A program made the position numbers and the translations under genes. A stretch of DNA of 64,000 nucleotides from Senegalia massiliensis. GTDB lineage: Bacteria; Bacillota; Clostridia; Tissierellales; SIT17. Below the pieces are notes generated by a model. It did no database searches. It saw only the letters and a list, made by a program, of their open reading frames with translations, and was not told the DNA's origin. This document shows, one piece after another, positions 2,643 through 51,229 of this stretch (positions within the stretch are counted from its first letter, which is position 1; each line of letters opens with the position of its first letter). Location of the stretch: the NCBI RefSeq assembly GCF_009911265.1, contig NZ_QXXA01000003.1:1-64000 (forward strand), written 5' to 3'.

Positions 2643-3788
2643 ATGAGAAATGATGTAATTATTATAGAAAATAAAGAAGACAATATTAATATTATTGAAA
2701 ATTTAATTTATGAAGAACTGGGAAGAAAAAGTACTTCTGTACATTTAGGTGTAACTGTTGAGAAAATATTATATATTGTAAAAAATAATTATATTGACTT
2801 AATAATTTTAAACTTAGATTCAACTTTAAAAGATATATTTAAAATCTTGGATAAAATAAATTATTTAATCAATAAACGCGAATTTAATATTCCAATAATT
2901 GTCTATTCTAATTCATTTAATAAAGATACTGTTGAGAAATTATTTGAATTAGGTGCAATAGATTATTTCATTGACCCATTATCTTCAGATGAAAAATTGT
3001 CAGTTCTTTCTTTTAAAATAAAAAATGCATTAAAAAATTATAAATATAATAAATATCAGCTGAAAATTAATGCTGAAAATAAAAAGCAATTGAGATTAGG
3101 TACTATACTTCAAAAATCTTTAATGTTTAAATATAAAGAACTTCAAAATATAAAAATTTCAGGAAGATATATACCTTCAACTGGTTTAGGTGGAGATTGC
3201 TATGATTCAATAGAAACAAACGGTAAAACATGGTTTATGATAGCTGATGTTATGGGACATGGAGCAAGTGCTGCCATGGTTTCATTTATGGTAAAAGCAC
3301 TTTTTAATCAATTAGCAACTATGTATAAAACTCCTAAAAAGTTATTAGAAGAAATAAATACTACTTATTATAAAATGTTTGAAAATAAAAGCGATATTAT
3401 CTTTTCTATATTCATAGGTACAATTTATAAAAATAAATTAACCTATTCTTCTGCTGGTCACCCTTATCCCATCTTTTATGATCATGAAACTAAAAATACT
3501 CAATTTCTATCCAATAATAATATATTAATAGGTATCACCCCAAATTCAAATTTTTCTCAAAAAACAAGAATTATAAATGAAGGAGATATTATATTTTTAT
3601 ATACTGACGGTTTATATGAACAAATTCCTGATATGCGTGATATAAATTTAATAAATATGTATATTAAAACTAATAAAGATATTCTCATAAAAAACCAAGA
3701 ATTATTTATGGATAATATAATAAAGCAATTCAATGATACTGAACAATTTGAAGATGATGTAGCTATTTTAACAGTAAAAAAGAAGTAA
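2643..3788 (+). CDS. Receiver-like domain fused to SpoIIE-type phosphatase
   Basis: 381 residues. Residues 1-130 have the fold pattern of a response-regulator receiver, followed by a helical linker (about 130-165) and a PP2C/SpoIIE phosphatase domain (about 165-380) with GGDCYDSI, IADVMGHGASAAMV, LYTDGLYE and EDDVAIL. The receiver is degenerate. The usual phosphoacceptor Asp in the DLIILD pattern is Asn57 (IILNLD), and the N-terminal acidic pair is ENKED. It therefore probably does not take phosphate in the classical way and may act as a constitutive or protein-binding module. ATG start with a GGGGGA site a few bases upstream. No histidine kinase is adjacent. Confidence 0.87.
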   Translation: MRNDVIIIENKEDNINIIENLIYEELGRKSTSVHLGVTVEKILYIVKNNYIDLIILNLDSTLKDIFKILDKINYLINKREFNIPIIVYSNSFNKDTVEKLFELGAIDYFIDPLSSDEKLSVLSFKIKNALKNYKYNKYQLKINAENKKQLRLGTILQKSLMFKYKELQNIKISGRYIPSTGLGGDCYDSIETNGKTWFMIADVMGHGASAAMVSFMVKALFNQLATMYKTPKKLLEEINTTYYKMFENKSDIIFSIFIGTIYKNKLTYSSAGHPYPIFYDHETKNTQFLSNNNILIGITPNSNFSQKTRIINEGDIIFLYTDGLYEQIPDMRDINLINMYIKTNKDILIKNQELFMDNIIKQFNDTEQFEDDVAILTVKKK

Positions 3789-3810
3789 GGATTCCTTACT
3801 TCTTTTTTAC
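3774..3810. terminator. Bidirectional terminator between phosphatase and rubrerythrin
   Basis: Seventeen-base arms (GTAAAAAAGAAGTAAGG and its complement) surround a 3-base centre. A-tract and T-tract on either side let it serve both convergent genes, and both stop codons lie inside the hairpin. Confidence 0.85.
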
Positions 3811-4358
3811 TTTGTAAATGCTGTAAATTTTTCTCTTTTTGCTCCACATATAGGACATACATCTGGAGCTCCATCTATAGCTGTGAATCCGCACACATCA
3901 CAAATGTGTACATCTTCTATATCATAATCTTCACCTTTATCTACTGATTTTTTTGCTTCTAAATATAATCTTTCATGTACTTTTTCTGCCTCAAGTGCAT
4001 AATGCATTGAAGTTATTGCTGATCTTTCTTTTTGCATCTTAGCAACTTCTAGGTATGCAGGATACATTTGATGAATTTCAAAATGTTCACCATCTGCTGC
4101 CCCTTGTAAGTTTTCAGAAGTAGTCCCTATGCCAAATCCACCCATTGATGCAACTAAATGATCACCATCTACATTTGCAAGTGCAGTAAAGTGGTTAGTA
4201 GCATGTACTTCTTCTGCATAAGATATTGCAATAAATAACCTTGCAACATTTGGGAAACCTTCTTTTTCTGCTTTATCAGCCCATATTCTATATCTCATAT
4301 GTGCTTGAGATTCCCCACCATAAGCAGATCTTAAATTTTCAGCTGTCATTTCATTCAT
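3807..4358 (-). CDS. Rubrerythrin
   Basis: 183 residues from the ATG at 4358, chosen because GGGAGGAG lies just upstream; a longer frame upstream lacks such a site. Residues 1-145 form a ferritin-like diiron domain with the iron ligands in repeated E..H/E..E patterns (GGESQAHMRY, YAEEVHA, ADGEHFEIH). Residues about 148-183 form a rubredoxin-like [Fe(SCys)4] domain with CDVCG and CPICG. Rubrerythrins reduce hydrogen peroxide in anaerobes using NAD(P)H-derived electrons, in the cytoplasm. The gene is monocistronic. It differs from the second rubrerythrin at 25313, which sits next to perR. Confidence 0.95.
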   Translation of the reverse strand: MNEMTAENLRSAYGGESQAHMRYRIWADKAEKEGFPNVARLFIAISYAEEVHATNHFTALANVDGDHLVASMGGFGIGTTSENLQGAADGEHFEIHQMYPAYLEVAKMQKERSAITSMHYALEAEKVHERLYLEAKKSVDKGEDYDIEDVHICDVCGFTAIDGAPDVCPICGAKREKFTAFTK

Positions 4359-4458
4359 AATAAAACTCCTCCCTTTATTGTTAATAATATATCTTGCCAA
4401 TAATCTTATACCCAGAATATCTTTATAAAAACATATATAATATTAAATAGCTTCATAT

Positions 4459-4623
4459 TTATTTGCCTTGGTTTTCTAAAGTATAATCATACATTGTAAT
4501 AGCATAATCTAAAGAAGATATACTACCTGTTATGGAGGTTAAACTTGTTCCATTATTATATAATGATCTTATCCCTCTAGAATCAAAATTCATTCCCACT
4601 AGCTTTGTATCTAATTCTAGAAA
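4459..4623 (-). pseudogene. 54-codon gene remnant in frame after oppB stop
   Basis: Right after the TGA stop of the permease gene, the same frame stays open for 54 codons to a TAA at 4459. It has no start codon with a ribosome site of its own (an internal ATG lacks one). The peptide begins FLELDTKLVG and ends MYDYTLENQGK. It does not look like an OppC permease, and I do not recognise it. The likely explanation is the 3' end of a gene fused here by a deletion that also removed oppC and the substrate-binding protein. Confidence 0.45.
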
Positions 4624-5541
4624 TCAGTTCAACTCACCTCTTAACTTAGGGTTTAGTACATATTTTAGTATTTTAAATATTGCAGTTATTAAAAAGTAAA
4701 GAAGAGCTATCATAATCCCCATTGCCATAACTACTTTGATTTCACCTAATTCATAATTTTTAAACATCACATATGCAAGACCTGGATATGCAAACATATA
4801 CTCTACTAATACAAGAGTAGATATTATAATAGTTGCTATAGCTGAAAATGAATCTAATAAATCCATTATGGCATTTCTAAGTACATGAATATATATTATC
4901 CTCCTATTTGAAGCACCTTTACCTAAAGCAGTTTTAACATAATTTTTTTCAAAATTTTGATCTATTGAAAGTGATGTTATCCTAGCAATATAACTCATAG
5001 GTATAAGAGTTAATGCAAGTATAGGAAGAATCATATGCCTTATTTCACCATGTCCTGCAGCTGGTACTAATTCTATTCCATTTCTATATAATATTACAGC
5101 TAAAAATTGTAATACTAATATCAAAAATACATCTGGCATAGCAAGTACTGTAAGAGTAGACAATGTCTTTAAATTTGAAGAATATCTCTTTTCTCTTTTG
5201 CTATCAAATATTCCTTTAAGAATTCCAAATACTATAGCAAAGAAAAGAGAAAATGAAAGTAAAATTACTGAATTTTTAAAGCTTGATTCTACAAAATTAA
5301 ATATAGATTTATTTGTATTACTAGTTCCAAATGTGCCTGATAAAAGAGTTTCATAATAGTCAAATACATTTTTAATAATTGCTTTAAACTCTATATTTGT
5401 TTCAAAACTTTTTTCTCCTAAAGGAAGTACTATAAAATTATTGGGGGTTAAATTTAATAATGCAAGTATAAGTGTAAGGGTAACAAACCCTATTATTAGA
5501 TTTAAAAGTATGTTTAATATAAGTTTTTTATTTATATTCAA
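4624..5541 (-). CDS. oppB: Oligopeptide/dipeptide ABC transporter permease (OppB/DppB type)
   Basis: 305 residues with about six membrane helices and the binding-protein-dependent permease signature near residues 195-225 (TALGKGASNRRIIYIHVLRN), the EAA loop that contacts the ATPases. The TTG start overlaps the end of the preceding ATPase gene by 14 bases, with GGGGGAG spaced about 6 bases before it. The length is normal for OppB. The system normally needs a second permease (OppC) and a lipoprotein binding subunit; neither is present downstream, where only a gene remnant remains. The import substrate (peptides, nickel or other) cannot be read from the permease alone. oppB itself looks intact. 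Confidence 0.87.
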   Translation of the reverse strand: MNINKKLILNILLNLIIGFVTLTLILALLNLTPNNFIVLPLGEKSFETNIEFKAIIKNVFDYYETLLSGTFGTSNTNKSIFNFVESSFKNSVILLSFSLFFAIVFGILKGIFDSKREKRYSSNLKTLSTLTVLAMPDVFLILVLQFLAVILYRNGIELVPAAGHGEIRHMILPILALTLIPMSYIARITSLSIDQNFEKNYVKTALGKGASNRRIIYIHVLRNAIMDLLDSFSAIATIIISTLVLVEYMFAYPGLAYVMFKNYELGEIKVVMAMGIMIALLYFLITAIFKILKYVLNPKLRGELN

Positions 5542-6547
5542 CTTTCTCTCCCCCTTTTGAATTTTCTATTACTTTTTCCTCTAAAAAACAAGCTGATTTA
5601 TGATTTTCTCCAACTTCTGTAAGTTTTGGCTCTAACTTTTCACATATATCCATCTTATATAGACAACGGGTATGAAATACACATCCAGAAGGCGTATTTA
5701 TAGGGCTTGGTATTTCTCCTTTTAATATTATCCTTTTTTGCTCTATTTTAGGATCAGGATGTGGAAATGCTGATATGAGTGCTTCTGTATATGGATGTTT
5801 TGGAGAGTTATATATATCATCTACCTTTCCTATTTCCATTAATTTTCCTAAATACATAACACCTACAGTATTAGATACATGTCTTACTACATTTAAACCA
5901 TGAGCTATAAATAAATATGTTAAACTATATTCTTTTTGTAAATCTGTAAGTAAGTTCAATATTTTTGACTGAATTGACACATCTAGTGCTGAAACTGGTT
6001 CATCACATAGTATAAATTTTGGTCTTGTAGATATGGCTTTAGCTATACCTATTCTCTGCCTTTGCCCACCACTGAATTCATGGGGAAATTTTTTCATATC
6101 TTTTGATGAAAGCCCTACTATATTAAGTAACCTCTTTACTTCTTTTTCTCTTTCAAATCTAGGTACTATATTATGTATCTTAAGTGGTTCTGTTAGTATA
6201 TCTTCTATTATCATCTTTGGGTCTAATGCCCATGATGCATCTTGAAATATTATTTGTAAATCCTTTCTCATCTTTCGAAATTTAGCTTTAGAATACTTAT
6301 ATATATCTTCACCTTCTACATATACACTACCACTAGTAGGACTTAGCAACCTCAGCATCAAAAGCCCTGTAGTACTTTTGCCGGAGCCACTTTCACCTAC
6401 TAATCCAAATGTTTCCCCTTTATTTATACCAAAAGAAATTCCATCTACTGCTTTTAATGTCTTTTCATTTTTAAATATATTTGAATTATTTACATCAAAA
6501 TATTTCTTTAAATTCTGAACTTCTATTAATTTTTCATTACTCATCAT
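5528..6547 (-). CDS. oppF: Oligopeptide ABC transporter ATP-binding protein (OppF type)
   Basis: 339 residues from the ATG at 6547, preferred over the ATG at 6562 because GAGGAGG lies 6 bases upstream. Walker A is GESGSGKST, the signature motif is FSGGQRQRIG, and Walker B is FILCDEPVSALD. The C-terminal oligopeptide-transporter extension carries the Cys residues (GCVFHTRC, CEKLEP) that bind an Fe-S cluster in some family members. It overlaps oppD by 11 bases and oppB by 14, so the genes are translationally coupled. It should power the permease at 4624 together with OppD. Confidence 0.92.
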   Translation of the reverse strand: MMSNEKLIEVQNLKKYFDVNNSNIFKNEKTLKAVDGISFGINKGETFGLVGESGSGKSTTGLLMLRLLSPTSGSVYVEGEDIYKYSKAKFRKMRKDLQIIFQDASWALDPKMIIEDILTEPLKIHNIVPRFEREKEVKRLLNIVGLSSKDMKKFPHEFSGGQRQRIGIAKAISTRPKFILCDEPVSALDVSIQSKILNLLTDLQKEYSLTYLFIAHGLNVVRHVSNTVGVMYLGKLMEIGKVDDIYNSPKHPYTEALISAFPHPDPKIEQKRIILKGEIPSPINTPSGCVFHTRCLYKMDICEKLEPKLTEVGENHKSACFLEEKVIENSKGGEKVEYK

Positions 6548-7520
6548 TACTGTCCTCCTCATAATGCCAGCATCTTACAAAATGACCCTTTTTATATTCT
6601 ACGAGTTTTGGATTATTATCTATACATTTATCCATACGTCTATTACACCTTGGATAAAAAGCACATCCCTTTTCTTTAATTTCTAAATCTGGTACATTTC
6701 CTTTAATAGTGTACAGTTCTTTTGCAGGATCATTTAATCTTGGTATACATTTCATAAGAGATACTGTGTATGGATGAAGTGGATTTTTATATAATTCATT
6801 TGTATATGAAATTTCTCGTATCTTTCCACTATACATTACCATTATCCTATCAGCTATATTTGTAACTACTCCTAAATCATGTGTTATAAATAATACTGAC
6901 ATATTTAATTCACTTTTTAAATTCTTTATAAGTTCAAGAATTTCAGCTTGTATTGTAACATCAAGTGCTGTAGTAGGTTCATCTGCTATTAAAAGTTTTG
7001 GATTGCAAATAAGCGCCATGGCAATCATTACCCTTTGTCTCATACCACCACTTAGTTCATATGGATATGAATTATATCTTTTTTCAGGTTCTGGTATATC
7101 TACTTTCCTTAAAAGTTCTATAGCCTTTTCCTTTGCATCACTGCCCTTTATATTAGTATGAATTTTTAATACTTCTTTTATTTGATAACCTACCTTTAAC
7201 ATAGGATTTAGCGAAGTCATAGGCTCTTGATATATCATAGATATATCTTTTCCTCTTATATGTCTAAGTTCTTTATTCTTTTTTTGTAACAAATCTTCTT
7301 TTTCAAATATTACTTTGCCATTTACTATTTTACCTGGTGGAATAGGTACTATTCTCATTATAGATTTGGCAGTTACAGATTTTCCACTACCTGATTCACC
7401 TATTAAAGCTACTATCTCTCCCTTTTTTATGTTAAATGATACATCATCTACTGCATGAATAGTTTTATTTTCTAATTTAAAGTATGTTGTAAGATTTTTT
7501 ACTTCAAGTAAATTTTCCAT
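6537..7520 (-). CDS. oppD: Oligopeptide ABC transporter ATP-binding protein (OppD type)
   Basis: 327 residues, first gene of the oppDFB operon. Motifs are GESGSGKSVT (Walker A), LSGGMRQRV (signature) and LLIADEPTTALD (Walker B). The C-terminal oligopeptide-type extension has GCAFYPRC and CIDNNP. ATG start preceded by AAAGGGG. OppD and OppF form the cytoplasmic ATPase pair of a peptide importer. In Firmicutes such importers also take up signalling peptides. That matters here because a possible peptide/regulator pair lies immediately upstream, but the link is inference. Confidence 0.92.
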   Translation of the reverse strand: MENLLEVKNLTTYFKLENKTIHAVDDVSFNIKKGEIVALIGESGSGKSVTAKSIMRIVPIPPGKIVNGKVIFEKEDLLQKKNKELRHIRGKDISMIYQEPMTSLNPMLKVGYQIKEVLKIHTNIKGSDAKEKAIELLRKVDIPEPEKRYNSYPYELSGGMRQRVMIAMALICNPKLLIADEPTTALDVTIQAEILELIKNLKSELNMSVLFITHDLGVVTNIADRIMVMYSGKIREISYTNELYKNPLHPYTVSLMKCIPRLNDPAKELYTIKGNVPDLEIKEKGCAFYPRCNRRMDKCIDNNPKLVEYKKGHFVRCWHYEEDSNDE

Positions 7521-7623
7521 AATATCGCCCCTTTTCCTATACTTCTTATATTCTATAAAAGGTTTAATATTCCTTTTTTATTTAGGTTGTAATATATTCT
7601 TAATATTTATAGTATTGAAACCT

Positions 7624-7791
7624 TTAACCTCTTACTCTACCATTATCATTATTCATAATTTCATATAATTCCAATATATAATGGTTGTTATTATAAATAT
7701 CTGAAATTTTAAATTCTAATCCATTTACTCCTATTCGACCTAATAATATAACTGCACCTATAATTATTGTTAATATAATTTTTTTTAATAT
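7624..7791 (-). CDS. Possible small exported signalling peptide (55 codons, ATA start)
   Basis: A 55-codon frame lies 16 bases after the stop of the HTH-TPR regulator gene. It starts ILKKIILTIIIGAVILLG, a short basic end followed by a hydrophobic core like a signal peptide. A polar tail with NNNHY and NNDNGRVRG follows. The frame is opened by a TGA just upstream, so initiation would have to be at ATA (7791-7789). AAGAGG is spaced 7 bases before it, exactly where a start codon belongs. The position and build match precursor peptides of RRNPP regulators. Doubt: AT-rich DNA readily encodes such runs and ATA is a very rare start. It could be a decayed gene. Confidence 0.4.
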   Translation of the reverse strand: MLKKIILTIIIGAVILLGRIGVNGLEFKISDIYNNNHYILELYEIMNNDNGRVRG

Positions 7792-7807
7792 AGTTCATCC
7801 TCTTAAA

Positions 7808-9100
7808 TTAATATTTATTTTCTATTTCATAAGCTTTTCCAAAAGCTTTTAGTGCCTCTTTTATTTTATTGTTATCCCTATAAATCTTACCAAGCTTTAG
7901 ATATATGTTAATTAATTTATTTTTATGTTCCTTATTATGTTCTAATAACTTTATTGCTTCTTTTATATTTTCTATAGCTCCTTCATAGTCTTTCTTATCT
8001 ACATAATAGTCTATATAGTGATTTAAACCTTTTATTATATGTTTTTGTATATTATTTTCTTTACTAATATTTATTCCTTCTTCTAAACATTCTAATGCTT
8101 TTACTTCTTCTTGGTTTTTCAAGTAATATTTATATAATTCATATAATGTAGTAGATAATTCTTTTAATTTTAATTTTTCTTTTATTTCTTTTGCTTTCAT
8201 TAAATGATTATATGCTTTCTCAAATTCTTCATTTTCTAAATAAATGTGACCTAAATTGTTTTCTATAAATGATGTGAGTTTTTCATCTTCTTTATCAGTA
8301 ATAATTCTTTTTGATTTTTCTAATATTTCTTTTGCTTCTTCGAATTTTCTTTCATCCATAAGTACCGAGGAGTATTTAAGTAAACTATAGCTATATCTTG
8401 TTCTATCTTTAGTTTTTTCATCTATTCTACAAGCTTCTTTAGCATATTTTAGTGCTAATTTATTTTCACCCATTTCATCATAGCAAGCTGAAATATTAAA
8501 TAATATATCACTCTCTATTTTTAAATCAATTATATCTGATTTACTATAAAATAACTGTGCTTGATTATATTTTTGAAGTGCTACTTCATTTAATTCTTTT
8601 TTATAATATATATTTCCTTCTTTTATATACGTTCTTGCAAGTCTATTGTAATCTTCTATTTTACTAAAATAGTAAACGTTTTTATCAAGTATATCCAAAG
8701 CTTTCTTGTAGTCTTCATTTTGAATATAATAATCTGATACCTTTAAATTAGATATACCAATGATATAAAATAGGTTATACTCTTCTGAAAATTCTGTTAT
8801 TTTATTATGTAAATCTTCTATTTCTCCTTTGTCATCTAATTCTATAAATACTTCTAATTCTTTAAGCCATAGATTACAGTAATTTTCAGATTGAGCTTTT
8901 TCTGTTTCTAACAAATACTCTAATGTAGTATCTAATTTTTCAGCTAAGTATTTTAATAACTTCATACTAGGACTTACTTTACCATTTTCCACTTGACTTA
9001 ATTGAGCATTAGTTACAAAATCTCCACCTAACTCTTTTAAATATAATCCTTTTTCCCTTCTAAGCCTTTTTATCTTTTCTCCTACTTTCAATATTTCCAT
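7808..9100 (-). CDS. HTH-TPR transcription regulator (RRNPP-like)
   Basis: 430 residues from the ATG at 9100; a GTG nine bases earlier overlaps the ribosome site and is less likely. Residues about 5-60 form a Cro/C1-type helix-turn-helix (KIKRLRREKGLYLKELGG, then AQLSQVENGKVSPS). Residues about 70-430 are tetratricopeptide repeats (for example YKKALDILDKN, FEKAYNHLMKAKE, YEGAIENIKEAIKLL). This is the layout of RRNPP regulators such as PlcR, Rgg and clostridial homologues, whose TPR domain binds an imported peptide. The small peptide frame just downstream and the opp genes beyond it fit this role, but peptide binding is not shown by the sequence. Confidence 0.85.
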   Translation of the reverse strand: MEILKVGEKIKRLRREKGLYLKELGGDFVTNAQLSQVENGKVSPSMKLLKYLAEKLDTTLEYLLETEKAQSENYCNLWLKELEVFIELDDKGEIEDLHNKITEFSEEYNLFYIIGISNLKVSDYYIQNEDYKKALDILDKNVYYFSKIEDYNRLARTYIKEGNIYYKKELNEVALQKYNQAQLFYSKSDIIDLKIESDILFNISACYDEMGENKLALKYAKEACRIDEKTKDRTRYSYSLLKYSSVLMDERKFEEAKEILEKSKRIITDKEDEKLTSFIENNLGHIYLENEEFEKAYNHLMKAKEIKEKLKLKELSTTLYELYKYYLKNQEEVKALECLEEGINISKENNIQKHIIKGLNHYIDYYVDKKDYEGAIENIKEAIKLLEHNKEHKNKLINIYLKLGKIYRDNNKIKEALKAFGKAYEIENKY

Positions 9101-9274
9101 AAATTTCACCTTACTTAATTTTATAATTTTATTTAATTAAATTTTAACATTAATTTAAAAGTATAGAAAGTATTTTTTAACGGTTAGTTCTAAAAAACTA
9201 TTTTGTTTTTATTTTTATTTTTCTTATGATATAATTACAATATAAGGTAATATTAGAAAAATAGAGGTGAAACA

Positions 9275-9988
9275 ATGCTAAATATAGCTATTTGTGATGA
9301 CGAAAATGCCATATGCAATCAATTAGAAAACATTCTATTAGATATTAGTCCAAAATATAATATAAAAATTGAAATAGATATATTTTATACCGCTGAAAAA
9401 CTATACAAAAGTTTATTAAATAAAAATAAATATGATTTAATTTTTTTAGATATTGAATTAAAATATATGAGTGGAGTCGAATTAGGAAGAAAAATAAGAG
9501 AAGATATAAATGACCAACTTACTCAAATAATATATATTTCAAGTAAAACTTCATATGCTATGGAATTGTTTTCTATAAGACCTTTAGATTTCTTAATTAA
9601 ACCAATTAGTACGAAAAAAGTGGACACAACATTTAGCACAGCCATGAAATTAATAAAAAACAAAAATATTTTTTTTAATTATCAAAAAGAAAAAGTATAT
9701 CATCGTATTCCTATAACAGATATACTCTATTTCGAAAGCAATAATAGACGAATAAATATATATACTTTAAATGGAAAAGATTCTTTTTACAGTACTTTAA
9801 AAGAAATTTTTAATGAATTAAATGATTATGGATTTGTATTTATTCATAGATCTTATCTTATCAATATAAATCATGTAAAAATCTTTAAATACAATAAAGT
9901 AACTTTAACAGATAATACAATCCTAAATATTACTCAAACTTTTAGAAAAAACTTAAGAGAGTTGCAGATGAAGATAGGTGAAATTTAA
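9275..9988 (+). CDS. LytTR-family response regulator (AgrA-like)
   Basis: 237 residues. Residues 1-120 form a receiver domain with the acidic pair at residues 8-10 (CDDE), phosphoacceptor Asp59 (IFLDIE) and Lys in DFLIKPIS. Residues about 135-235 form a LytTR DNA-binding domain with YFESNNRRI and FIHRSYLININHV. ATG start with AGAGGTGA upstream. The stop overlaps the ATG of the kinase gene by one base, so the two are translationally coupled. LytTR regulators bind direct repeats about 21 bases apart. Such a repeat lies before the agrB-like gene (11857-11890), the best candidate target. Confidence 0.92.
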   Translation: MLNIAICDDENAICNQLENILLDISPKYNIKIEIDIFYTAEKLYKSLLNKNKYDLIFLDIELKYMSGVELGRKIREDINDQLTQIIYISSKTSYAMELFSIRPLDFLIKPISTKKVDTTFSTAMKLIKNKNIFFNYQKEKVYHRIPITDILYFESNNRRINIYTLNGKDSFYSTLKEIFNELNDYGFVFIHRSYLININHVKIFKYNKVTLTDNTILNITQTFRKNLRELQMKIGEI

Positions 9989-11262
9989 TGAACACTATTA
10001 ATTATGTCTTATTTTATCTTATAGTAAATATTTTATATGTATATACCATATTTAGATTTATGGGAGTTTTTTTTGAACGAGAAAAAATAAAGAGAAAAGA
10101 AGTATTTTCTTATTTTATTTTTTATATAGTAATTTCTTTTATTTTTTTAGTCTTTAATATACCTTTACTTAGTTTAATTACAAATATAATTTCTTTTTTT
10201 CTACTATCTTTAAATTATAAGTCAAATTTTAAAAAGAAAGTTATCTCTATATTTTTTATAATTTCAATAATGATGTTTTCAGAAATTATAGTTACTTTGT
10301 TTATGGTTAATATAGATTTATCTATTTTTAAGTCAATCTATCTAGATATTTCTATTATAATTTTTAGTCGAATAATAAGCTATCTTATCGTATTAATATT
10401 TGAAGGAGCTAAAAATGTAAAAAACAATATAGAATTACCTAATATTTATTGGTTTTCTGTCTTTTTTATTCCTTTAAGTTCTATGTATTTAACATTGTTA
10501 CTTTTTCAAAATAGTAATTTGAATAAATATGAATTATTAATCTCCATACTAATATTATTTATAATCAATATAGTTACTTTTTATTTATATGATATGTTAA
10601 CTAGAATATATAAGGAGAAAATACAAAATGAATTATTAGAGAAACAAAATCAATATTATGAAGAACAATTTAAAATTATGAATTCTTCTTATAAAAAATT
10701 AAAAGCTATAAGACATGATTTAAAAAATCACCTTATAGCTATAGAAGATTATATAATTCATAATAAAAAAGAAAAAGTACTAAAATATATAGAAAAAATT
10801 AATACTTCATCTTATGATAAAAGAGAGTTCGCCCATTCTGGTAATGTAGATATTGATAGTATATTAAATTATAAAATTCAATATGCCAAGTCAAAAGGTA
10901 TAAGTATAGATTTAAATTTAAATATACCATATGATTTAAATTTAGATTCTTTTGATATGATTATAGTAATTGGCAACTTAATAGATAATGCCATAGAAGC
11001 AACTTTTAAATTAGAAAATGATAAAAGATTTATACATATTAATATATTTTATGATAGAAATATACTTCATATGCACTTTAAAAATAACTTTGATGGTAAG
11101 ATTATAAAAGAGAAAGAAAAAATCCTAACCACAAAAAAAGATAAGTTTAATCATGGTATAGGACTTAAAAATGTTAAATATATATTAAATAAATATGAGG
11201 GGGACTTAGATTGTAGTTATGATGATAATATATTTTATGTAAAATTATTATTTTATTTATAA
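9988..11262 (+). CDS. Sensor histidine kinase (AgrC-like, GHKL ATPase)
   Basis: 424 residues. Residues 1-205 contain about six membrane helices, as in peptide-sensing AgrC kinases. A coiled stretch (about 205-235) leads to the phosphoacceptor box IRHDLKNHLIAIEDYI (His near 244). The ATPase domain has the N-box GNLIDNAIEATF and a glycine box HGIGLKNVKYIL near the C-terminus. It starts within the stop codon of the response regulator gene and forms a two-component system with it. The AgrB-like gene lies convergently 4 bases beyond its stop. The natural ligand would be an autoinducing peptide, but no agrD is found beside it. Confidence 0.9.
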   Translation: MNTINYVLFYLIVNILYVYTIFRFMGVFFEREKIKRKEVFSYFIFYIVISFIFLVFNIPLLSLITNIISFFLLSLNYKSNFKKKVISIFFIISIMMFSEIIVTLFMVNIDLSIFKSIYLDISIIIFSRIISYLIVLIFEGAKNVKNNIELPNIYWFSVFFIPLSSMYLTLLLFQNSNLNKYELLISILILFIINIVTFYLYDMLTRIYKEKIQNELLEKQNQYYEEQFKIMNSSYKKLKAIRHDLKNHLIAIEDYIIHNKKEKVLKYIEKINTSSYDKREFAHSGNVDIDSILNYKIQYAKSKGISIDLNLNIPYDLNLDSFDMIIVIGNLIDNAIEATFKLENDKRFIHINIFYDRNILHMHFKNNFDGKIIKEKEKILTTKKDKFNHGIGLKNVKYILNKYEGDLDCSYDDNIFYVKLLFYL

Positions 11263-11266
11263 ATAT

Positions 11267-11776
11267 TTATTGTACTTTTCCAAATAAAATCATTATTGAG
11301 AGTATAAATAAAGATATAGATATTGTAAGGGCAATATTATTAACTTTTAATATTAATAACATCAAAACTATAGCTAATTCTAAAATACACATCATTTTTG
11401 ATATGATTTTATATTTCTTTGCTTTTTCTTTATTAGAAAAATTATTAATATCTTCTACTGGAGATAGTAATACTATAAATGATGATATGATTACTAAAAA
11501 TAATATAATATAATTTGATGATGGAATATATTTTATAGATATCATTGCTATTATAGTTACAGCCAGAGAAAATATATAGCAATTTAAATTGTTACCTGCA
11601 TCATATCCTCCTGCATATGAACGAATTGGTTCATAAGAAATAATAAAAATTATACTCTCTAGAACTCTATCAAATAATATTCCAATTACAATTATAGTTA
11701 TAATATTTACTATCATAAGTATAATTCTTTTTAGTATAAGTCTATCAGGGCTATTAATGCTATTTTCGATTTTCAT
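11267..11776 (-). CDS. AgrB-like peptide-processing membrane protein with altered active site
   Basis: 169 residues with several membrane helices and the AgrB core RSYAGGYDAGNNLNC. In AgrB peptidases that cut and cyclise the AgrD precursor, the core reads GGxHA followed by Cys seven residues after the His. Here the Cys (66) is in place with exact spacing, but the His position is Asp59, codon GAT at 11602-11600, one base from CAT. The remaining length and helix pattern are normal. ATG start preceded by AAAAGGAA. It is convergent with the agrC-like gene. No AgrD precursor follows it. Activity is doubtful; it may be a divergent or decaying AgrB. Confidence 0.8.
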   Translation of the reverse strand: MKIENSINSPDRLILKRIILMIVNIITIIVIGILFDRVLESIIFIISYEPIRSYAGGYDAGNNLNCYIFSLAVTIIAMISIKYIPSSNYIILFLVIISSFIVLLSPVEDINNFSNKEKAKKYKIISKMMCILELAIVLMLLILKVNNIALTISISLFILSIMILFGKVQ

Positions 11777-11856
11777 ATTTTAATTCCTTTTAAAAAGTTA
11801 TTTTTTATTTAGTTAATATAATTATATGATAAAAATATCCATGATATCTTCAAAAT

Positions 11857-11890
11857 GTAATAACTCGTATTCTCCATGTCATAACTCATA
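11857..11890 (-). promoter_or_regulatory. Probable LytTR operator upstream of the agrB-like gene
   Basis: Two 13-base direct repeats lie at 11857-11869 and 11878-11890. Read on the gene strand they are TATGAGTTATGAC and TACGAGTTATTAC, 21 bases apart (10 of 13 identical). A 21-22-base period is the hallmark of LytTR-family sites, bound by a regulator dimer on one helix face. It sits about 80 bases before the agrB start, a position suited to activation. Confidence 0.6.
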
Positions 11891-11943
11891 ATTATTTATA
11901 TTCCTATATAAAGTATTTCTACCTAATTACACAAACTAATTAT

Positions 11944-11981
11944 AAAAAAAGCTTGAACTATTTAAAAGTTCAAGTTTTTTA
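11944..11981. terminator. Terminator after diguanylate cyclase gene
   Basis: AAGCTTGAACT pairs with AAGTTCAAGTT around a 6-base loop, with T-runs on both sides. It serves the minus-strand GGDEF gene ending at 12001. Confidence 0.8.
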
Positions 11982-12000
11982 TGAAAATATAGTTGAATGT

Positions 12001-13314
12001 TTAATTTCTAACTTTTAAAAGAAGATGATTTTTTCTCTTATTTTTATATTTATCTGCATACATATTTTCATCAGCAGTTTTCAAAACTTTTTCTATAGGC
12101 TTTTCTCCAATTTTTATTAAATCCCAACCAATAGAAATACTCATAACAAATTCATTATGAATTTTGTTATACTCTCCAACAGAATTTTTAATTCTATTTA
12201 CCAAACTATTTATATCCTCTTTTTTTATATTGTATAATATAATAGCAAATTCATCTCCACCTATTCTTGCTACTGTATCACCTTCCCTAAGATTACTTTT
12301 TAATATTTTTGCAGCATCTTTAAGATATTTATCTCCCATTAAATGTCCCTTACTATCATTAACTTTTTTCATATTATCAAGATCAGCCATTACAATTCCA
12401 AGAGTTTCATATCCTAATTCATTGATTAATCTCATTTCTTTTTCAAAATAGAGTCTATTATACAATCCTGTTAATGAATCTTTTAAGCTAAGTATTGAAA
12501 GTTTTTTATTAACTTTTTCAAGTTCTATTGTTTTTTCTTGTAATTGTTGATTATACTTATTTAATTTATAAAAAAGAGTTTTATATGGCTCTTTTAAATT
12601 TATAAAATTTAAAGCCTTATATAAAAGATAATAAGAAATTATTTTAAATATATATCCTAATGAAATATATATATTTTCTTGTCCTAAAAAGTTAATAAAA
12701 AAACTATTAGAAATTAAGAGTGAAACCATGGAACTCATAAGTATATAATACATCTCATTATGAAAATACTTTTTATATTTAAACATAGTTATAATACTTA
12801 AAGATATTAATATAATTGCAAAAAACATTATTACAAAGGTAGAAGGGTTAAAAATATTAGTCACAAATATAATAAATAGGGAAAATATACTTACACTTAA
12901 ATATATTAAAAAAAATAAATGTAATCTAAATTTAAAATGAAAATTTAGAAATGATACAAAAAGAGATATTGATTGAATTATTCTCGATATAAGCCATAAA
13001 TTTATATGAATAGACATAGAATAATTAAATATACCTATATTAGGATTAGTTAAAATGTGTAATATATCAAAAAAGGCTACAAAACCATAAGAAAGTCCTA
13101 AAAAAGTAAAATAGTGAGTTTGCGAAATTTCATAAGTATTTAATGCTATTATAGCCATTGACATTCCAATTATTATAGCAAAAATATTTGATATAACTTG
13201 AAAAAAAATAAAATTTTGAAAAGATATATATACATATATAATTATTAATAAGCCTAAAATTAATATAGAAAAAATTCTGTTATTTTGTTTTAATATTATA
13301 TCTTTAGATGTCAT
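12001..13314 (-). CDS. Membrane diguanylate cyclase with MASE3-like sensor
   Basis: 437 residues. Residues about 15-250 hold about eight membrane helices of MASE3 type (LSYGFVAFFDILHIL), then a short coiled coil and a GGDEF domain (about 280-430). The active-site signature is intact (ARIGGDEFAI), and an RxxD product-inhibition site (REGD) stands five residues before it, as in feedback-controlled cyclases. It makes cyclic di-GMP from two GTP at the membrane. GGGGTGA is the ribosome site and lies in a possible hairpin of the leader. No c-di-GMP riboswitch consensus is visible in that leader. Confidence 0.93.
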   Translation of the reverse strand: MTSKDIILKQNNRIFSILILGLLIIIYVYISFQNFIFFQVISNIFAIIIGMSMAIIALNTYEISQTHYFTFLGLSYGFVAFFDILHILTNPNIGIFNYSMSIHINLWLISRIIQSISLFVSFLNFHFKFRLHLFFLIYLSVSIFSLFIIFVTNIFNPSTFVIMFFAIILISLSIITMFKYKKYFHNEMYYILMSSMVSLLISNSFFINFLGQENIYISLGYIFKIISYYLLYKALNFINLKEPYKTLFYKLNKYNQQLQEKTIELEKVNKKLSILSLKDSLTGLYNRLYFEKEMRLINELGYETLGIVMADLDNMKKVNDSKGHLMGDKYLKDAAKILKSNLREGDTVARIGGDEFAIILYNIKKEDINSLVNRIKNSVGEYNKIHNEFVMSISIGWDLIKIGEKPIEKVLKTADENMYADKYKNKRKNHLLLKVRN

Positions 13315-49847: not shown

Positions 49848-49918
49848 TTTTTCATTTCCACTTGAAAGTTAAATATATTTATACTATACTATAACTAAAC
49901 TGTATTATGGAGGAAAAT

Positions 49919-51229
49919 ATGACTACTGGAGAAAAGATTAAATCCTTAAGAAAAGAATTAAAACTCACACAGTCTGAACTTGCTGGTAAGGAAATGACTA
50001 AAAGTATGTTAAGTCAAATAGAAAATAATAATGCAATGCCATCAATGAAAAATTTAAAATATCTTGCTAATAAATTAGGTAAACCAATTTCATATTTTTT
50101 AGATGAGAATACTTTAAACGAAAACATCCCAATAGAAGAAATTAAAACTAAAATAAAAATAGCTGATGAATATATGAGAAACAGAGAAAATAAAAAAGTT
50201 ATAGAAGTATTAGATGATATTTTAAATAATTATGATATAAATAAAAATAGTAAATTATATGCAGATATTTTATATAAAAACGGAGCAAGTCAAGTTAATT
50301 TAATGAATTTTGAAGTATCAGATAAATATTTAAAAAAAGCAGTGGAAATATATAACCAACATAATTTATATTCTTATGCTGCTAAAGCTTATATGGAATT
50401 TTTTGGACGTTATTGGAACGAACAAAACTATAATAAATGTTTAAATATATTAACTGAAGCTTATGAATTATATATGAATTCCACTACAGAGGACATTACT
50501 TTTCATTTAGAATATTTATCTAATAAATCTTTAATATTATCTTCTATGGGTAGGATAAATGAATCTTTTAAACCTATTGATGATGCAATAAATTTATCCA
50601 AAGAAACTAATGTCTATTATAATACAGGTGAATTATATAGACTAAAAGGTAATTTAAATAGAGTTATGGAAAATTATGAAAATGTATTACATTATTTTAA
50701 AAAAGCAAAATTATTTGCTCAATTTACTGATAATGAATTAGATTTAGCTATATTAGAACTTAACTTTAGTGTCTATTATACAGATATCAATGAACCTATG
50801 AAAGCCTTAGAATATTTAAAAAGAGCTAGAGAAATGTTTAAAAATACTCCTCACTATCCTAAACATCTATTTCATAATCAATTAGCAATTGTATATTATA
50901 TGTTAGAAGACTATCAAAAAGCTTATGATGAAATTAATAAAAGTACTTTCCCAGAATTACTCTTTCATAAAGTAGACTATGTAAATATGTGGTTGGGAAA
51001 AGTTTATAAAGGCATGATATTATATAAACTTGGTGATAAAAACCAGGCAATTGAATCAATTAATAAAGGAATAGAAATGATGAGTAAAGTGGGAAATTCT
51101 AAATATTTATCTTTTGCATACAAAGAATTAAGTAATATATATTCTGAAATTGACGATTATAAAAATGCATTTAAATCTTTAAAGAAATCAGAACAAATAC
51201 TAAAAAGCTTAAATGGAAATCCTTTCTAA
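49919..51229 (+). CDS. HTH-TPR transcription regulator (RRNPP-like), second copy
   Basis: 436 residues from the ATG at 49919, with GGAGG five bases before it. N-terminal helix-turn-helix (about 3-60; KIKSLRKELKLTQSELAG, then MLSQIENNNAMPS) and about eight tetratricopeptide repeats (about 75-435; SDKYLKKAVEIYN, ENVLHYFKKAKLFA, YKNAFKSLKKSEQIL). Same layout as the regulator at 7808. No peptide gene follows; a terminator comes right after. It is divergent from an MFS exporter with a small upstream ORF, its probable target. Confidence 0.88.
   Translation: MTTGEKIKSLRKELKLTQSELAGKEMTKSMLSQIENNNAMPSMKNLKYLANKLGKPISYFLDENTLNENIPIEEIKTKIKIADEYMRNRENKKVIEVLDDILNNYDINKNSKLYADILYKNGASQVNLMNFEVSDKYLKKAVEIYNQHNLYSYAAKAYMEFFGRYWNEQNYNKCLNILTEAYELYMNSTTEDITFHLEYLSNKSLILSSMGRINESFKPIDDAINLSKETNVYYNTGELYRLKGNLNRVMENYENVLHYFKKAKLFAQFTDNELDLAILELNFSVYYTDINEPMKALEYLKRAREMFKNTPHYPKHLFHNQLAIVYYMLEDYQKAYDEINKSTFPELLFHKVDYVNMWLGKVYKGMILYKLGDKNQAIESINKGIEMMSKVGNSKYLSFAYKELSNIYSEIDDYKNAFKSLKKSEQILKSLNGNPF

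Follow-up and report, generated by a model that had tools for sequence, protein, structure and literature searches.

A regulator gene and, directly downstream of it, a small open reading frame (ORF) lie together on the minus strand of a Senegalia massiliensis contig (NZ_QXXA01000003.1 of assembly GCF_009911265.1), of which the first 64,000 nucleotides were analysed; this whole stretch is referred to here as the window. An original prediction had taken the two to be a quorum-sensing pair of the RRNPP family, whose propeptide either used an unusual start codon or had lost its start. The anatomy that it described is present. Pfam confirms the N-terminal helix-turn-helix (HTH) domain of the regulator (HTH_3, residues 13-66) and the tetratricopeptide repeats (TPR), which match across the remainder of the protein. 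The 55-codon frame, with its basic and hydrophobic start and polar tail, does begin 16 bases after the regulator stop, at an ATA codon preceded at a suitable distance by AAGAGG.

Coordinates of the regulator, the propeptide frame and its translation signals in the window
Feature	Position	Strand	Basis or remark
RRNPP-like receptor/regulator	7808-9100	minus	HTH_3, TPR, alignment of relatives; 430 aa from ATG
Propeptide frame	7624-7791	minus	55 codons from ATA (54 from TTA) plus stop; homologues and shuffle test
Conserved C-terminal tail N-D-N-G-R-V-R-G	7627-7650	minus	motif found among 1387 frames only in family copies
AAGAGG, Shine-Dalgarno-like	7799-7804	minus	AAGGAGG in both intact relatives
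ATA, possible non-canonical start	7789-7791	minus	7 nt after GAGG
TTA aligned to the ATG (L008) and TTG (L132) starts of relatives	7786-7788	minus	10 nt after GAGG

The ORF tool sets the upstream limit of the regulator at a GTG at 9109, and the ATG at 9100 is where its relatives begin. The protein measures 430-433 amino acids, its stop codon TAA lies at 7810-7808, and its HTH_3 and TPR_12 matches both exceed the Pfam cut-offs. RRNPP receptors are recognised by a length of 250-500 amino acids, TPR repeats and, usually, an N-terminal HTH (length range from PMC10075063), and the regulator has all of these features. Its AlphaFold 2 model (mean predicted local distance difference test score, pLDDT, 92.6) has a predicted TPR superhelix at the C-terminus. 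By VIA-align, the top match to this model was NprR (5dbk_A, Z 28.5), with LGN, an unrelated TPR protein, close behind (Z 27.3); several Rap receptors and the NprR-NprX complex (4gpk_I, Z 25.9) appeared within the top 20 rows.

The downstream frame reads I-LKKIILTIIIGAVILLGRIGVNGLEFKISDIYNNNHYILELYEIMNNDNGRVRG-stop, ends in a TAA at 7626-7624 and, by inspection, comprises a basic head (LKK), a hydrophobic run and a polar tail; its head contains no ATG, GTG or TTG. Propeptides of this family are defined as products of 10-100 amino acids encoded between -60 and +400 bp of the receptor (PMC10075063), and the window frame falls within these bounds, as do those of two relatives (L008 and L132) described below. 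The window peptide matched no Pfam family at E up to 0.001, NCBIfam gave one insignificant match (E 0.065), and Rfam returned nothing at gathering scores within 3000-13000. No terminator-like sites were found within 4300-9400 (0.9 expected in shuffles), and hence co-transcription is possible. Inverted repeats of the AT-rich upstream region were uninformative.

It is the relatives of this frame that point to its origin. Among 249 genomes of the order, its own included, regulator matches at 1e-12 were present in 12. Downstream sequence was read at 16 loci, including the window and a paralogue from its own genome (the L007 sequence stops too early to include any; L003, L004, L005 and L010, the last of which overlaps L019, were left out of this reading), and in two of the 16 the regulator is immediately followed by a peptide of this type. 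The first, from Sporosalibacterium faouarense (L008), follows a regulator 44% identical to that of the window, starts with ATG and reads MKKLIAF...NSDDDGGIRG; the second, from the metagenome-assembled genome MES16 (L019/L132), starts with TTG and reads LKKFILF...NNIDDGGTRG. Common to the window peptide and these two are the basic-hydrophobic head and a tail of the form D-x-G-[G/R]-[I/T/V]-R-G followed by the stop, and at conserved tail residues the S. faouarense and MES16 genes show synonymous third-base differences. A model of the three peptides retrieved one further tail-keeping copy from the 249 genomes, a remnant in genome G027 ending NNIDDGGTRG. In that search 49 of the 249 genomes had matches at E up to 0.1, and among the matches listed none extended past position 49 of 54 besides the three inputs and G027. 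The conserved tail is presumed to hold the mature signal peptide.

Global alignment of the window frame to the two intact relatives scored 105, against 25.5 +/- 12.1 in shuffles performed separately for head and tail with the composition of each kept (0/5000). The last 16 residues alone gave a score that none of 5000 shuffles reached, and with the last 10 residues removed the score was still 64 against 19.0 +/- 11.7 (2/5000 shuffles). Furthermore, in a set of 1387 stop-to-stop frames of at least 40 amino acids, drawn from the window and 25 fetched loci, the tail score against the two relatives equalled or exceeded that of the window in six, all belonging to the family: the window, G027, and S. 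faouarense and MES16 twice each, both loci having been fetched twice. The next best frame scored 5.5 against 22. By itself, the openness of the frame is mildly unusual, not decisive: dinucleotide shuffles of the intergenic stretch produced a 56-codon open run starting at most 16 nt from the regulator stop in 17 of 5000 cases and, with any position in the stretch allowed, in 86 of 5000. It is because its relatives are homologous that the frame goes beyond chance and is, by this homology, a gene by descent.

The translation signals of the window copy differ from those of its relatives. Both intact relatives have the Shine-Dalgarno sequence AAGGAGG and a start codon aligned to the window TTA; the Shine-Dalgarno match is 4 bases long in the window versus 7 in the relatives. 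Thus, the window propeptide is without a usable canonical start and a full Shine-Dalgarno sequence, whereas the S. faouarense (ATG) and MES16 (TTG) genes have both. The start is spaced at 10 nt in S. faouarense and 7 nt in MES16, values that in the window correspond to TTA and ATA, respectively. A spacing of 7 nt is the commonest among window ORFs, found in 16 of the 50 with a recognisable site (54 were looked at), although this yardstick is rough because the ORF starts were picked by site. Judged from sequence, the start codon and Shine-Dalgarno of the window are weaker than in the relatives, but its spacing and its coding part are preserved. With no canonical start and AAGAGG upstream, the window copy would be a derelict or weak relative of RRNPP pairs rather than a working member.

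Related genomes offer a similar picture. A genome of the same genus (G003) matches the window at 94.5% identity over 4546-7606 and at 92.8% over 9208-11925, and between these flanks the pair is absent, with a regulator-like stretch remaining (window 8495-8574, 85%). Three other genomes of the genus have no regulator match at 1e-20. The G027 copy of the peptide has, by reading, a broken head and a TTA at the start position, and the 10 kb fetched from this genome contain no match to the regulator; MES16 has an intact peptide next to a frameshifted regulator. Side by side, the compared loci look like stages of loss, running from an intact pair through a frameshifted regulator, a start-less peptide and a peptide remnant to a deletion scar. 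This repeated loss across G003, G027 and MES16 speaks for a propeptide silenced next to a receptor that is itself intact.

Taken together, we read the locus as an RRNPP-type receptor/propeptide pair of an RstA-like Tissierellales branch, in which the propeptide of this genome is probably silent or nearly so, and assign this reading a probability of about 0.6. It starts from what the locus contains: a two-gene anatomy, a frame with homologues, a conserved tail and a receptor of HTH-TPR architecture. The propeptide is likely silent because TTA replaces the ATG or TTG start and AAGAGG replaces AAGGAGG. In the intact form, for example that of S. faouarense, the basic-hydrophobic head would direct export of the propeptide, and cutting would leave a short C-terminal fragment around D-x-G-G-x-R-G. 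An oligopeptide permease would then bring this fragment back into the cell, where it would occupy the TPR groove of the receptor and alter DNA binding by the HTH. Export, processing, uptake, binding and the regulated genes are envisaged here by analogy with the RRNPP family, for which the scheme of export, cutting, uptake and binding is described (PMC9765709) and in whose receptors a conserved Asn touches the peptide backbone (PMC6458997). In the window genome, the intact receptor may act as an orphan or sense peptides made by others. The original prediction is thus supported in part: an RRNPP-like pair stands by descent, but the weaker start signals of the propeptide do not support a working unit. 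Between the two fates that it offered for the start codon, loss fits better, given the weaker start and Shine-Dalgarno, the deletion in G003 and the decay in G027, and an unusual start is correspondingly unlikely.

Several observations weigh against this reading. NprR, of the NprR-NprX system of Bacillus, is the best VIA-align match to the receptor model, but it shares 17% identity and leads LGN by just 1.2 Z, and Foldseek prefers LGN, ranking it first and NprR seventh. A hidden Markov model of three short rows, from which the window copy had been left out, missed the window peptide when the whole genome was searched in six frames and gave three weak matches elsewhere in the genome; the homology claim accordingly draws on position, order, length and alignment together, not on genome-wide search. 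The other apparently intact peptides number just two, so that conservation is thinly sampled, and modelling the S. faouarense receptor and peptide as one read-through product did not place the tail confidently (pLDDT about 29).

The remaining points against it bear on the silence of the propeptide, and with them comes the alternative that the pair works and that ATA, as a deliberately weak start, drives low-level translation of the propeptide. Spacing has not degraded, TTA matching that of S. faouarense and ATA the commonest in the window, and the frame is still open with its conserved tail, such that either the loss is recent or translation continues. Indeed, infC of the window genome (L143, G000:C1) likely starts at an ATT preceded by AGGAGG; in the stretch read, no canonical start is in frame except a GTG upstream of AGGAGG. 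In Staphylococcus aureus, infC and ccpN have AUA starts, and AUA reporters of ccpN and citZ reached about 10% of the AUG level in poor medium, and that of ccpN up to 30% in rich medium (PMC13009471). By analogy, a non-canonical start of the window frame is possible. Extended Shine-Dalgarno sequences help the S. aureus AUA starts (PMC13009471), however, whereas that of the window is short; the codon homologous to the start of the relatives is TTA, not ATA; and the pair is lost in G003. We consider a weak ATA start unlikely, albeit with an appreciable chance. Coupled with the wider proposal that RstA-like Tissierellales receptors have adjacent pheromone genes with D-x-G-G-x-R-G signals, a low-level ATA-started signal in the window genome becomes more doubtful still.

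It is improbable that the start codon in the assembly is wrong or strain-specific and that the species has a normally started propeptide. The TTG of MES16 is one transition from TTA and the rest of the frame is intact, but the Shine-Dalgarno differs too and the decayed copy of G027 also has TTA. Runs of A favour slippage, and an ATG at 7798-7796, in another frame, precedes a run of eight A on which ribosomes could slip into the peptide frame; with that ATG abutting AAGAGG at a spacing of 0 and the relatives starting at a later codon, this explanation is very improbable. Least credible of all is a chance open stretch that was never a gene, which the shuffle counts of open runs and the negative leave-one-out model would allow, but which the alignment and tail tests oppose, as does the same position and similar length of the frame in two other families of the order.

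The wider placement of the pair follows from its regulator. A midpoint-rooted tree of 25 rows, in which the MES16 row was assembled from two pieces and for which the program warned of long branches, places the window regulator in a seven-row Tissierellales clade (support 100/99, inner branching unresolved). RstA of Clostridioides difficile (L137) groups with L102, L103 and L138 (99/97), apart from this clade but within the same larger group. Within the seven rows, the family peptide lies beside the regulator in three (window, S. faouarense and MES16) and was not found beside it in three others (L006, L009 and L017); L007 is at a contig end. The expectation that relatives keeping the regulator would also keep the frame, its head and tail, and a canonical start was therefore borne out in two of the five other judgeable clade members (L008 with ATG; MES16 with TTG, its regulator frameshifted), and not in the other three. 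As regards kinship, which had been sought with PlcR, Rgg and clostridial homologues, the nearest annotated relative is RstA rather than PlcR or Rgg: by tblastn it is the nearest annotated protein in the plasmid collection, with 30% identity over two thirds of the protein.

Searches further afield added little. Viral contigs gave nothing useful with the window regulator or the regulator alignment, nor did genome contigs with the window regulator alone or plasmids with the S. faouarense peptide, and phages had no tblastn match to the regulator or the S. faouarense peptide. When genome contigs were scanned with the regulator alignment, the first five of the best 80 of 189 relatives (L021-L025) were loci from the order search, and the matches listed for the other 75 of these 80 are confined to the first 134 residues. 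Applied to 71 genomes of the family of G536, which is kin to C. difficile RstA in the tree, the peptide model matched six, all weakly and none reaching the last five positions; thus, no peptide for RstA was found.

Like the window regulator, RstA is an RRNPP receptor with HTH and TPR. RstA is reported to have no adjacent propeptide gene (PMC6414698), whereas the clade of the window regulator has one in three of its seven rows. Moreover, yedF comes after RstA, while the window regulator, in its separate Tissierellales clade, has opp and LytTR genes as neighbours, not yedF; it shows neither the close grouping nor the shared neighbourhood by which RstA orthology is judged. The Qsr/Qsp systems of Clostridium acetobutylicum resemble the present arrangement in that a small gene for an exported-type peptide comes after an HTH-TPR regulator, but Qsp peptides carry conserved L, P and W residues at their C-terminal end (PMC7376267), which the window tail NDNGRVRG does not, its family ending instead in D-x-G-[GR]-x-R-G. 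The arbitrium system AimR-AimP likewise combines an HTH-TPR receptor with a short signal peptide, and most AimP families share a C-terminal RGA (PMC6458997) where the window family ends in RG, a resemblance only; AimR-AimP is a phage system, whereas the window pair has no match in the phage and viral collections searched. Clostridial RRNPP pairs have already been described (PMC7376267), and one Tissierellaceae case is included among pairs inside biosynthetic clusters (PMC10075063). Literature searches gave no match for RRNPP with Tissierellales, nor for Sporosalibacterium with quorum sensing. On the literature searched, which covered PMC10075063 short of its supplementary tables, the small subfamily looks undescribed.

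Other regulators and small genes came to light alongside. The window encodes a second HTH-TPR regulator (49907-51229, plus strand), at most 27% identical to any tree row, and no propeptide-like frame was noticed directly downstream of it. In another genus of the order (f14 g58), L012, L013 and L016 encode distant HTH-TPR regulators, about 25-28% identical to that of the window, followed by a small exported-type peptide with D-P-P-G-[TI]-G, a second possible pair family. A mini-gene of 21-23 codons with P-N-x-x-S-L-K-T directly follows the propeptide in L133, L132 and L131. Related frames (L150 and L147) lie close to the beginning of contigs in G248 and G247, where the fetched stretch showed no propeptide, and the mini-gene was not found in the window or its genome.

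An opp operon beyond the pair had also been proposed, and oppD, oppF and oppB are indeed there (window 4624-7520, minus strand). They match part of a longer opp operon of G003 (L156 3359-14122, minus strand), which includes two permease proteins of about 800 amino acids, each OppC-like by position, with BPD_transp_1 and Peptidase_M28 matches; at 1e-5 neither permease finds a counterpart in the window. G003 has two copies of the leader that precedes oppD, and recombination between these repeats may explain the opp difference. Four oligopeptide-binding proteins were found in the genome, none on the contig of the window. Because the OppC-like genes of the G003 relative are absent, the adjacent opp genes are weak support for signalling.

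Close by lies an AgrB-family protein (window 11267-11776, minus strand), also present in G003 (L156 16429-16941, minus strand). In both, seven residues before a shared Cys, an Asp stands where the AgrB of G027 has a His, and this His is catalytic in AgrB. No AgrD-like frame was seen in the short translated stretches beside the window AgrB. The decayed peptide of G027, like the window pair, lies near an agr-type locus (L131 5945-8287, minus strand), comprising, as named by reading, a LytTR-like regulator, an AgrB-like protein, a kinase and an AgrD-like frame of 46 amino acids.

RstA regulates toxin production, motility and sporulation in C. difficile, and its ligand is reported as unidentified (PMC6414698 and PMC11115286). 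The intact relatives of the window pair suggest a small new branch of a known signalling family. A related clade with an adjacent, conserved propeptide would supply concrete peptide sequences for the RstA branch, the S. faouarense pair first among them. If this is true, the RstA branch would gain its first candidate pheromones in the D-x-G-G-x-R-G peptides.
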